Below, in pieces: positions 10,103 through 13,139 of a stretch of 64,000 nucleotides of DNA (its first letter is position 1; each line of letters opens with the position of its first letter). The position numbers were made by a program, and so were the translations under genes. The notes beneath the pieces are model-generated. The model saw only the letters and a program-made list of their open reading frames with translations, was not told the DNA's origin and made no database searches. This DNA comes from Isoalcanivorax pacificus W11-5 (lineage in GTDB: Bacteria; Pseudomonadota; Gammaproteobacteria; Pseudomonadales; Alcanivoracaceae). The DNA lies in contig NZ_CP004387.1 of NCBI RefSeq assembly GCF_000299335.2, positions 1,488,001-1,552,000 on the forward strand, read 5' to 3'.

Positions 10103-11659
10103 ATGTATCTGACCCAGGGATTGCACCGCGCGGTGCAGCAGTTTCCGGACCGCCTCGCGACCATCCAGGACGACCGGCGCACCAGCTACCGTGAACTCGG
10201 CGAGCGTTGCGCCCGGCTCGCCGGCGCACTGCAACGTGCGGGTGTGAAGCCCGGTGATCGTGTTGGCCTGCTGGCGCTGAATTCGGATTTCCATACCGAG
10301 TATTTTCTCGGCTGCTGGTGGGCGGGCGCGGTCTGTGTGCCGGTGAACACTCGCTGGAGCGAGCAGGAAATCATCTACTCGCTGGATGACAGCGATACCG
10401 CACTGTTGTTCGTGGATGATGCGTTCGCGCCGATGGCCGCCTCGTTGCTGCAGGGCGCCCGCGCGCTGCAGACCGTGGTGCATCTGGGGCAGGCCGAAAC
10501 ACCAGAGGGTGTGACGGCGTTCGGTGACTGGCTGCACGAGGCACCGCAGGTCGAGGACTGCCGTCGAGGTGGCGACGAGATGGCGACCATTCTCTATACC
10601 GGCGGCACCACCGGCTTTCCCAAGGGCGTGATGCTGTCGCACCGCAATCTGTGGAGTTCGGCGGTGGCGCGCATGGCCGAAGGCGAGCCGTTGCGGCATC
10701 ACGTCAGCCTGTATGTGGCGCCGCTGTTCCACACTGCCAGCCTGGGCAAGCTGATCTCGCAGATCATGGTGGCGGGCACCAGCGTGGCGGTGCCGGCGTT
10801 CCGGGTTGAGGAAGTGATGGCGCTGATCAGCCGCGAGCGCATCAACGATGTGGTGCTGGTGCCGAGCATGATCCAGATGATGCTCGATCATCCGGCCTTC
10901 GCGGACTACGACCTGGACTGCCTGGAACGGATTACCTACGGCGCATCGCCGATTGCGCTGGCGGTGCTGGAACGGGCCATGAAAGCGTTTCCGAAAGCGC
11001 AGTTCTCGCACGCCTACGGCATGACCGAAACGGCGCCGGTGATCAGCATCAATCCCTGGTTCAACCATCTGCCCGAGGCGTGGGAGTCCGGCATTGTGCG
11101 GTCCGCCGGGCGCGCCGGGTTGTGTGTGGAAGTGCGCATTGTTGATGAAGACGACAACGAAGTACCACGCGGCACGGTGGGCGAGGTGATTGCCCGTGGC
11201 CCGAACGTGATGCTGGGTTACTGGAAAAAGCCGGAGGCTACCGCCGAGGCCTTGCGCAACGGCTGGATGCACACCGGCGACGGCGGCTACATGGATGAGA
11301 ACGGCTACCTCTACATCGTCGACCGCATCAAGGACATGATCATTTCCGGCGGCGAGAACGTGTACTCCGCCGAAGTGGAAAACATTCTCGCGCGCCACGA
11401 AGCGGTGCAGGCCTGTGCCGTGATCGGCGTGCCCAGCGAGGCCTGGGGCGAGGCGGTGCATGCGGTGGTGGTGAAACGCGAAGGTGTCAGCGTGACGGCT
11501 GAAACGCTGCAAGCCTTTTGCCGTGAATGCCTGGCCGGCTACAAGGTGCCGAAGTCAGTGGAGTTCGTCGAGGCACTGCCGATGTCGGGCCCGGGCAAGG
11601 TGCTCAAGCATGTGTTGCGCGAGCCGTACTGGAAAGGGCGCGAGCGGCAGGTGTCCTAG
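10103..11659 (+). CDS. Acyl-CoA synthetase (AMP-forming)
   Basis: A complete 518-residue adenylate-forming enzyme. It shows the P-loop YTGGTTGFPKGVMLSH, the YGMTE motif, TGDGGYMDENGYLY with the hinge DRIKDMIISGGENVY, and a C-terminal PMSGPGKVLKH with the catalytic lysine. It should convert a carboxylic acid, ATP and CoA to acyl-CoA. It is paired with the binding protein just upstream, mirroring the synthetase/binding-protein pair at the left end of the island. Its stop codon TAG is half genome, half mobile element: TA belongs to the target site and G is the first base of the inverted-repeat element. Confidence 0.92.
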   Translation: MYLTQGLHRAVQQFPDRLATIQDDRRTSYRELGERCARLAGALQRAGVKPGDRVGLLALNSDFHTEYFLGCWWAGAVCVPVNTRWSEQEIIYSLDDSDTALLFVDDAFAPMAASLLQGARALQTVVHLGQAETPEGVTAFGDWLHEAPQVEDCRRGGDEMATILYTGGTTGFPKGVMLSHRNLWSSAVARMAEGEPLRHHVSLYVAPLFHTASLGKLISQIMVAGTSVAVPAFRVEEVMALISRERINDVVLVPSMIQMMLDHPAFADYDLDCLERITYGASPIALAVLERAMKAFPKAQFSHAYGMTETAPVISINPWFNHLPEAWESGIVRSAGRAGLCVEVRIVDEDDNEVPRGTVGEVIARGPNVMLGYWKKPEATAEALRNGWMHTGDGGYMDENGYLYIVDRIKDMIISGGENVYSAEVENILARHEAVQACAVIGVPSEAWGEAVHAVVVKREGVSVTAETLQAFCRECLAGYKVPKSVEFVEALPMSGPGKVLKHVLREPYWKGRERQVS

Positions 11660-11945
11660 GGCCTGTTCACACTCATTCCAATGGCCCTGTTGAGCCTGAA
11701 AACGCGCCGATCACCAGAAGTAGGCGCTTTAGGCGAGGCGCGAGGAGAGAAGTTTGGTGGACCCAAATGAACGACGAGCAACGCGGAGCGGCGCGTTCTC
11801 AGGCTCAACCCGAAGGGCTGGCCCTGTTTTGCCACCCCGCCGCGTTAGCCGCTGCTCATGTGGACCCGCCACACTACGCACCGGCTGCCTTGCGGGGCGG
11901 CAAAACAGGGCCAGCAGGGCCATTGGAATGAGTGTGAACAGGCCC
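11659..11945. mobile_element. MITE-like inverted-repeat element, 287 bp
   Basis: The ends are perfect 31-bp inverted repeats (11659-11689 and 11915-11945) beginning GGGCCTGTTCACACTC. A TA dinucleotide flanks both sides (11657-11658 and 11946-11947), as expected for a TA target duplication. Inside are two further inverted repeats, 11690-11709 with 11789-11808 and 11820-11840 with 11892-11912, each 20-21 bp with one mismatch, so a single strand can fold into a three-way junction. No transposase is encoded; short open frames inside are not credible genes. It looks like a non-autonomous element moved by a transposase elsewhere. The family is not assigned. Confidence 0.85.
11757..11867 (+). repeat. 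GTGGACCC repeat in both internal arms of the element
   Basis: The octamer GTGGACCC occurs at 11757-11764 and again at 11860-11867, each near the tip of one internal arm. In the first it sits in a mini-hairpin TTTGG-TGGAC-CCAAA, in the second in TGTGG-ACCCG-CCACA. The two arms may be diverged copies of one ancestral hairpin. Confidence 0.55.
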
Positions 11946-12646
11946 TAACGCAGTTGCCCGCCGGCTTCGGCAATGTAGTCGCGCAGCGCGATGCCGGCAT
12001 TGTCGATATGTCGTGCCATGGCCGCTGCGGCGGCCTTGGCATCGCCCTCGGTCAGGGCAGACAGAATCTCATGGTGCTCGCGGTTGGAGGCGGGCACGCG
12101 GGAGTGAATCTTCAGCGGGGTCAGCGGCGGCAGCCCCTGCCACAGGCTGGTGATGATCTTCAGCAACCGGGGTTGCCGCGCGGCTTCGTAGATCGCGTGG
12201 TGGAACTGCTGGTTGAGGGCCACGTAGCTGTCCACGTCGCCGCTGCTTTCGGTGGCGTCCATGGCCTGCTGCAACTGGTTCAGTTCGGCCAGGTCGGCCT
12301 TGCTCAGGTGCGGGGTGGCCAGGGCCACGGCGCGGGCTTCGAGCAGTGCGCGCAGGGAATAGATTTCTTCCACGTCCTCGATGGCGCAGGGCGTGACGGT
12401 GTAGATGCCGCGGCTGTCGGTCTCCACCAGGCCATCGGCCTGCAGGCGACGCAGCGCATCGCGCACCGGGATGCGGCTGGTGCCGAAACGGCCGGCCAGC
12501 TCCTCGTGGATCAGGCGGTCACCGCCGGCCATTTCGCCGCTGAGGATGGCCTCGCGCATGCGCAGGTAGACCTCCTCCTCGATGGAGCGACGGCGGACCG
12601 GGGTCAGGCTGGATGACTTGAGGCTGGATGATTTCGGGCTGGGCAT
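11945..12646 (-). CDS. GntR-family regulator, FCD (FadR) subfamily
   Basis: About 233 residues from the preferred ATG at 12646; another ATG at 12679 would add 11 residues but leave only 22 bases to the divergent thioesterase gene. The N-terminal winged helix reads RSIEEEVYLRMREAILSGEMAGG, then ELAGRFGTSRIPVRDALRRL, followed by an all-helical FCD ligand domain (LRALLEARAVALA, NQQFHHAIYEAA, EHHEIL). Such regulators usually repress catabolic operons and release DNA on binding an acid or acyl-CoA. It is the only regulator in this island, so it probably controls the flanking operons. Its TAG stop shares the target site of the inverted-repeat element. Confidence 0.9.
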   Translation of the reverse strand: MPSPKSSSLKSSSLTPVRRRSIEEEVYLRMREAILSGEMAGGDRLIHEELAGRFGTSRIPVRDALRRLQADGLVETDSRGIYTVTPCAIEDVEEIYSLRALLEARAVALATPHLSKADLAELNQLQQAMDATESSGDVDSYVALNQQFHHAIYEAARQPRLLKIITSLWQGLPPLTPLKIHSRVPASNREHHEILSALTEGDAKAAAAAMARHIDNAGIALRDYIAEAGGQLR

Positions 12647-12701
12647 GGCATGGCGTTCCGGGGCTGACAGAGCGGCCATAGATTAACACGAACTCGCGCG
12701 C

Positions 12702-13139
12702 ATGCCGCGCAGCGGGGAACGGGATACCGATGAGCTGGACAACCGAACACGAGATCGCCTGGAACGTACCAACCCGTTTCGCAAGTTTCTGGGTGTGTCA
12801 GTGAGCTTTGTCGACGGGGGCGTGGCGGAAGTCACGCTGCCGGTGCATGACCAGCTGTTGCAGGCCTACGGCATGGTGCACGGCGGCATCTACTGTGTGC
12901 TGATCGACACGGTGCTGGGCAGTGCGGTGCGCGGTGTCTGCGGGTTCGATTCGAAGCCGCTGACGGTGGACCTGAATGTCAGCTTCCTGCGCCCGTCGGG
13001 CAAGGGCGTGCTGACCGCCCGGGCGGAGATCATCAAGCCGGGCCGCAAGGTGCTGGTGGGCAATGCGGATGTGATGGACGAGCAGGGCAGGAAAGTGGCC
13101 ACCGGCCGCGGTTCCTTTCTGCTGAATACGCCGGCCTGA
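12702..13139 (+). CDS. PaaI-type hotdog-fold thioesterase
   Basis: A 145-residue single-hotdog protein. The motif MVHGGIYCVLIDTVLGSA (about residues 58-75) and the later LTVDLNVSFLRPSGKG are typical of PaaI/YbgC-like acyl-CoA thioesterases. It would hydrolyse stalled or surplus acyl-CoA of the pathway to free acid and CoA. It is divergent from the GntR regulator. The start at 12702 gives an N-terminal tail of about 20 charged residues; no better start with a clear ribosome site is seen. Confidence 0.85.
   Translation: MPRSGERDTDELDNRTRDRLERTNPFRKFLGVSVSFVDGGVAEVTLPVHDQLLQAYGMVHGGIYCVLIDTVLGSAVRGVCGFDSKPLTVDLNVSFLRPSGKGVLTARAEIIKPGRKVLVGNADVMDEQGRKVATGRGSFLLNTPA

Follow-up and report, generated by a model that had tools for sequence, protein, structure and literature searches.

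The window analysed here, a stretch of 64,000 nucleotides from Isoalcanivorax pacificus W11-5 (NZ_CP004387.1, positions 1,488,001 to 1,552,000 of the forward strand), carries two convergent genes, encoding an acyl-CoA synthetase and a GntR/FCD regulator, that are separated by a 287-bp element. This element, at 11659-11945, is bracketed by TA flanks in the sequence TCC-TA-[GGGCCTG...CAGGCCC]-TA-ACG and possesses perfect terminal inverted repeats of 31 bp, its first 31 bases being complementary to its last 31. No open reading frame of at least 100 aa lies wholly within the 287 bp, and the element thus contains no transposase gene. The features of the locus, in window positions, are as follows:

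10103..11659, plus strand: acyl-CoA synthetase (AMP-binding by Pfam), full length, ending in TAG at 11659
11657..11658, no strand: left TA flank (target duplication, as judged from empty sites elsewhere), which with the next G forms the TAG stop of the synthetase
11659..11945, plus strand: non-coding element (MITE), 287 bp
11659..11689, plus strand: left 31-bp terminal inverted repeat, GGGCCTGTTCACACTCATTCCAATGGCCCTG
11689..11809, no strand: hairpin arm A, with conserved loop AGGCGCGAGGAG...AACGC
11714..11735, no strand: 22-bp insert within arm A, among the copies aligned common to L002 only
11809..11817, no strand: small, strongly conserved hairpin CCCGAAGGG between arms A and B
11817..11915, no strand: hairpin arm B
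11915..11945, plus strand: right 31-bp terminal inverted repeat
11946..11947, no strand: right TA flank, which, read on the minus strand together with the last C of the element, gives the TAG stop of GntR
11945..12679, minus strand: GntR/FCD regulator (by Pfam), full length, ending in TAG at 11945

The first and last bases of the element complete the TAG stop codons of both convergent genes, and both proteins look full length. Specifically, the synthetase ends at the same residue as its 80% identical homologue in G003, and the last residue of the GntR protein (244) is reached by the alignments of all seven other loci with a GntR match. An earlier note on this DNA had proposed this arrangement, in which the G and C of an element lying between TAs finish both stops, and it is borne out by the sequence and the ends of the reading frames. 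The same note held that removal of the element and one TA would rejoin the flanks as TCCTAACG; the join was reproduced as claimed and constitutes the predicted empty site. Within the genus, the synthetase/GntR pair was found, besides the window, only in G004, which has the element too: its copy (L009) occupies the same site as the window copy (L001), in an alignment that runs through the flanks at 92.7%. In G003 and G001, of the same genus, no GntR match was present beside the synthetase in the stretch read (loci L060 and L068), and the frame that follows the synthetase there resembles, by eye, the hotdog/thioesterase-like frame at window position 12702. Six loci of other genera with the convergent pair (L061, L062, L063, L065, L066, and L067) are element-free, and their stop codons, all TGA bar one TAA, lie 6-34 bp apart without overlapping.

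The predicted fold consists of a long outer stem bearing two hairpin arms, between which lies the small CCCGAAGGG hairpin. Folding energies on the two strands are -184.9 and -196.5 kcal/mol (z-scores of -13.9 and -15.8), with none of 200 shuffled sequences folding as well. Among 66 aligned copies, 97.8% of cells pair, compensatory changes occur in 57 of 84 pairs, the loops are near-invariant, and covariation reaches 0.431, compared with 0.133 in shuffles and at most 0.089 when the alignment is slid. The arms make a fold, as a cruciform or as RNA, that is both very stable and conserved in structure. Stem differences within 74 pairs of copies at least 95% alike, pairs that are not independent of one another, comprise 66 double Watson-Crick, 7 other double, and 212 single changes; these fit selection on the fold and arm-to-arm correction of quasi-palindromes at the DNA level alike. 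G-U cells number 195 versus 65 A-C cells, but as 111 of the G-U cells derive from two pairs (96-112 and 229-270), no claim is made for RNA over DNA. A scan of 11500-12100 for an intrinsic terminator, that is a GC stem with a T-run, found none, and the two-way terminator that the earlier note had thought possible has the strong hairpins as its sole support. The search for a structured RNA of Rfam returned six matches, all chance-like and below the gathering threshold. The 22-bp insert of arm A is present in two copies of the window's own genome (the window copy and L002) and absent from the orthologous L009 of G004.

Copies elsewhere, for which the earlier note had suggested a search, are numerous: five further full or near-full copies reside in the same genome, giving six with that of the window, and more exist in relatives. 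Matches were observed in 2 of 7 genomes of the genus, in 30 of 46 of the family, and, with the L098 copy as query against an even draw of the order, in 43 of 293 genomes and 23 of 118 genera, 10 of those 43 being family genomes. A stretch of the element is also present in NZ_AQOR01000026.1 (Alcanivorax sp. S71-1-4), and each of two queries matched three plasmid records in part, while no phage sequence matched the element queries. Ends were fixed for 93 copies, of which 87 possess a clear pair; this set is non-random, consisting of 80 hand-picked places, most among the top matches listed for the family, and 13 from earlier loci. A second set comprises 39 loci chosen from the order and other searches, of which L292 yielded no match and L291 a spurious pair, leaving 38 accepted pairs, L291 included.

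Of 20 stretches picked for shorter forms, 15 hold versions of 36 to 191 bp that retain the same ends, and the other five hold single ends. One of 58 bp (L222, in G035) has flanking letters identical to those of a full copy in G036 (L092). Three forms of about 175 bp (L230, L231, and L232) contain a single arm that is, by eye, inverted relative to the full element. Additionally, nine copies (L002, L020, L104, L139, L143, L144, L163, L164, and L166) are conserved-arm relatives with quite different, internally matched ends, and by eye give the impression that the arms have been joined to various ends.

Analysis of the flanks demonstrates a defined target. In the 87 clear-ended copies, TA is found on the left in 55, on the right in 58, and on both sides in 35, so that 52 lack it on one side or both; at least one side bears TA in 78 copies, which represent 67 distinct sites, 32 of them TA/TA. 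Among these 32 the target reads YTAR in 30 (CTAG 12, CTAA 9, TTAG 8, and TTAA 1, the rest being TTAT and TTAC). The corresponding background figure is 494 out of 7605 TAs over 463.6 kb, and in the second set YTAR accounts for 17 of 20 TA/TA sites. Empty counterparts were sought by comparing 14 joined sites with the 46 family genomes, 30 of the returned loci being read at the junction. Element-free relatives with a single TA exist for five of the 14 sites: L104, L110, L114, L117, and, as the best example at 98% identity, L159. For L110, the 96% identical relative also lacks 8 bp just beside the site, and its other relative has TGA. At L013 the relative has TAG at the same codon, shifted in the alignment (by eye), while the relatives of L098, L134, L142, and L157 have TGA stops only. 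No match crossed the junction of L088, L102, L129, or L156 in the 30 loci read; for the last three, crossing matches are listed at places outside those 30. Taken together, filled and empty alleles at these other loci show that insertion occurs at the TA of YTAR with the gain of one extra TA.

Two kinds of neighborhood were noted while these junctions were compared. At L142 and L104, the empty relatives display a TAATG or TGATG stop-start overlap at the site, such that in the filled site the ATG of the next gene possibly follows directly after the right end of the element. At L098, a terminator-like hairpin with a T-run lies, by eye, just downstream of the right flank, and the element appears to have been inserted between a stop codon and its terminator.

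With respect to the window, the TA rule permits a history of the locus to be reconstructed with some caution. The expected empty site TCCTAACG was not found in any locus read, and the overlap of the ancestral stops is for this reason inferred from the rule seen at other sites; empty sites, as the earlier note had envisaged them, were thus recovered at other loci and not at this one. Its proposal that the two stop codons had overlapped agrees with the TA rule, while the six pairs of other genera, with their separated stops, offer no example of it. By that rule, the ancestral convergent genes presumably had stop codons overlapping in CTAA, and insertion into these overlapping stops would be the simplest reading of the locus.

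The relationship between the element and stop codons extends well beyond the window. Open frames of 100 codons or more that terminate precisely in a TAG completed by the element number 45, of which 32 lie to the left of it and 13 to the right; they belong to 38 of the 87 copies, a few of which are mutual orthologues. There are 31 cases in which the opposite flank is TA, and in 30 of these the base that follows would complete TAA or TAG again, so that the ancestral TA belonged to a stop codon. Of 43 proteins scanned, the two of L009 being left out as orthologous to those of the window, 33 match Pfam and 10 do not, and several of the domains (RodZ_C, SIMPL, LemA, SURF1, and FabA) are complete and end near the C-terminus. 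In the second set (38 pairs, one spurious), 14 frames of at least 150 codons likewise end in a stop made by the element.

Sites were also classed with a home-made gene caller based on codon scores, which assigned 25 of the 67 distinct sites to stops; as it placed 31 in intergenic and 11 in coding sequence, stop codons are a preference and not a rule. The 32 TA/TA sites were called as 16 stops, 13 intergenic, and 3 coding. One site, L110, was called coding though its RodZ_C domain is complete, and the stop count is therefore conservative there; stops of two genes at once were called only for L001, the copy of this window, and L111. Among non-coding TA/TA sites, 16 of 28 are stops against 5.67 expected on background YTAR sites matched by 4-mer (p = 1.6e-5), with one further site (TTAC) falling outside the 28 as it does not match YTAR. 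When gene-end sides only are considered, 16 of 20 are stops against 6.29 expected for the same 4-mer (p = 9e-6). The left and right orientations differ in the family set (18 versus 5, p = 0.011), but this bias was not repeated in the second set (5 versus 9), and consequently no claim is made on orientation. These counts show that insertions of the element family are concentrated in stop codons; relatives in marine bacteria are often situated likewise, because the ends would rebuild a stop on landing. The earlier note had regarded the window insertion as having hit the one site that breaks neither gene: the genes are indeed intact, but the case is not singular, stop codons being a recurrent landing place of the family.

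A candidate mobiliser with matching ends, another object of search named in the earlier note, was found in a relative. Locus L292 of G231 consists of 808 bp with GGGCCTGTTCACACTAATT at both ends, situated between CTA and TAG; its ends agree with those of the window element in the first 15 bases and in 18 of 19 overall. It carries two overlapping reading frames, matching Pfam DUF4096 and DDE_Tnp_1, of which the first contains eight consecutive A before the overlap, suggestive of a programmed frameshift. Related transposases on three plasmids, of Caballeronia, Polaromonas, and Cupriavidus, have ends of TAGGGCGTGTTCACACTAA or close to it, and the four insertion sequence copies examined sit between CTA and TAG, for which a 4-bp CTAG repeat would fit as well. 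In size, frame organization, and flanks L292 resembles the IS427 group, and the likely mobiliser of the element is an IS5-family, IS427-like insertion sequence. A search with the N-terminal frame of L292 detected no transposase of this type in the window's own genome; across the 46 family genomes it gave a match at an E-value of 1e-5 or better in one, G025, where it marks a remnant. Among the matches listed for the five genomes searched for ends, no inward-facing pair 0.7-1.5 kb apart was seen by eye. With no transposase of this type detected there, mobilisation in trans is a proposal for the host of the window. The element is most simply a MITE of the insertion sequence type of L292, in a host now apparently without the corresponding transposase.

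The element therefore represents a new, structured, stop-codon-tolerant MITE family: it is short and without a transposase gene, bears terminal inverted repeats, shows a target duplication where filled and empty sites can be compared (at other loci), and is dispersed in many copies. The claim of the earlier note that a mobile element had entered without breaking either gene agrees with these dispersed copies, with the TA gained at other loci, and with the integrity of both genes; instead of the same 287 bp everywhere, with neither empty site nor further copies, both copies and empty sites were found, the latter elsewhere. The explanation preferred as a whole, with a probability of roughly 0.86, is that of a non-autonomous MITE that depends on an IS5-family transposase of IS427-like type acting in trans and is tolerated in stop codons. 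According to this explanation, YTAR would offer a stop on both strands, TAR in one direction and the complement of YTA in the other, and an element starting with G and ending with C, placed at its TA, would create TAG on either side bearing a gene end. By virtue of this G, C, and TA target, proteins would keep their exact C-terminus, and insertions in stop codons, being close to neutral, would survive while others were lost. Counting against the explanation are the failure to detect such a transposase in the window's genome, the failure to find an empty allele at this locus, the separated stops of the pairs in other genera, the 52 of 87 copies without TA on one side or both, and the intergenic and coding sites among the 67; nor are conserved loops and covarying arms something that a plain MITE would obviously require.

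These same features, the near-invariant loops and the compensatory changes in 57 of 84 pairs, together with a very stable fold on both strands, the many copies directly at gene ends, and the same-site copy common to G000 and G004, would be expected of an element kept as a two-way terminator or 3'-end stabiliser, with stop-codon copies enriched as useful and not merely harmless. This alternative is considered unlikely: no terminator-like site with a T-run was found, 9 of the 32 distinct TA/TA copies have no called gene ending towards them and 3 lie in coding calls, the orientation bias of the family is absent from the second set, and the 58-bp derivative in G035 shares its flanking letters with the full copy in G036. 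A true target preference of the transposition machinery, for instance for transcribed or terminating gene ends, would account for an excess of stops that persists against gene-end-side sites of the same 4-mer (16 of 20, with 6.29 expected); but the same pattern could arise if purifying selection removed insertions that fall in promoters or coding sequence or that cost a gene its downstream terminator, and such a preference is judged unlikely. Distinctly improbable is the broader suggestion of a widespread gammaproteobacterial mobile fold of which the arms, and not the ends, are under selection, and which in stop codons serves as a standard 3'-end module; were this so, the module would bear on processing, stability, or termination for host genes. 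The occurrence of the same arms with several different, internally matched end sequences is an observation relevant to this suggestion.

An IS630/Tc1-mariner-type MITE with TA duplication, like RUP, is very improbable. The IS630 family prefers a CTAG target, and both this preference and the TA duplication would fit that family too; however, DDE_3 matches occur in only 3 of 46 family genomes and in neither G000 nor G004, none of the four loci retrieved has matching ends as a pair, and an IS5-type transposase gene between matching ends does exist. That the element is a vertically inherited structured RNA gene, despite strong covariation and conserved loops, is extremely improbable, given that the sites are dispersed, that the empty sites, with their gain of a TA, refute this as a complete account, that shorter forms share the same ends, and that no Rfam family is matched at gathering score.

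In terms of the preferred MITE explanation, the combination of its end bases with the YTAR target would render stop codons a haven for the transposon: a stop on either strand would be rebuilt upon insertion, such that even two convergent genes sharing the site survive. The 67 distinct sites, some with empty alleles and with forms of 36 to about 350 bp, provide a natural set with which to ask how structured MITEs alter gene ends and why the hairpin arms covary.

Several properties of the element have precedents. Among the matches listed, a search of the open-licence literature yielded no recognised account of these elements or of any MITE with an excess in stop codons; the main text of a 2024 MITE review does not contain the term 'stop codon', and the stop codon mentioned in the excerpted account of MITEAba12 belongs to a truncated gene and is premature (PMC6382973). 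IS427-group insertion sequences of Paracoccus, as excerpted, are 832-865 bp in length (about 0.83-0.87 kb) with short terminal repeats and mostly 2-bp direct repeats, one having 4, and some contain two overlapping reading frames with a frameshift motif (PMC3281130). L292 is like the members so described in size, TA flanks, and two frames, and bears the ends of the window element, which itself differs in having no transposase and in its long paired arms. MITEPsy1 of Pseudomonas syringae is a 100-bp element with a 4-bp duplication that inserts at CTAG or YTAA and that its authors think possibly derived from the IS5-family ISPsy2 (PMC3189936). It is like the window element in small size, the link to IS5, and CTAG/YTAA targets, and unlike it in its ends; the excerpted description makes no mention of stop-codon insertion (PMC3189936). 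The excerpted account of RUP, Correia/NEMIS, and ERIC presents them as small repeats that terminate in TA and whose transcripts are highly paired; of these, RUP is linked to IS630-Spn1 and proposed to be moved in trans (PMC2229807). The window element is linked instead to an IS5-type insertion sequence, a distinction from RUP drawn between descriptions and not between sequences. An IS5-related MITE targeting CTAG or YTAA and TA-flanked structured repeats are thus already known. In Enterococcus faecalis, the palindromic EFAR repeats insert at stem-loops downstream of genes and replace the target hairpin, whereas insertion of the family described here adds a TA and preserves the sequence that follows.
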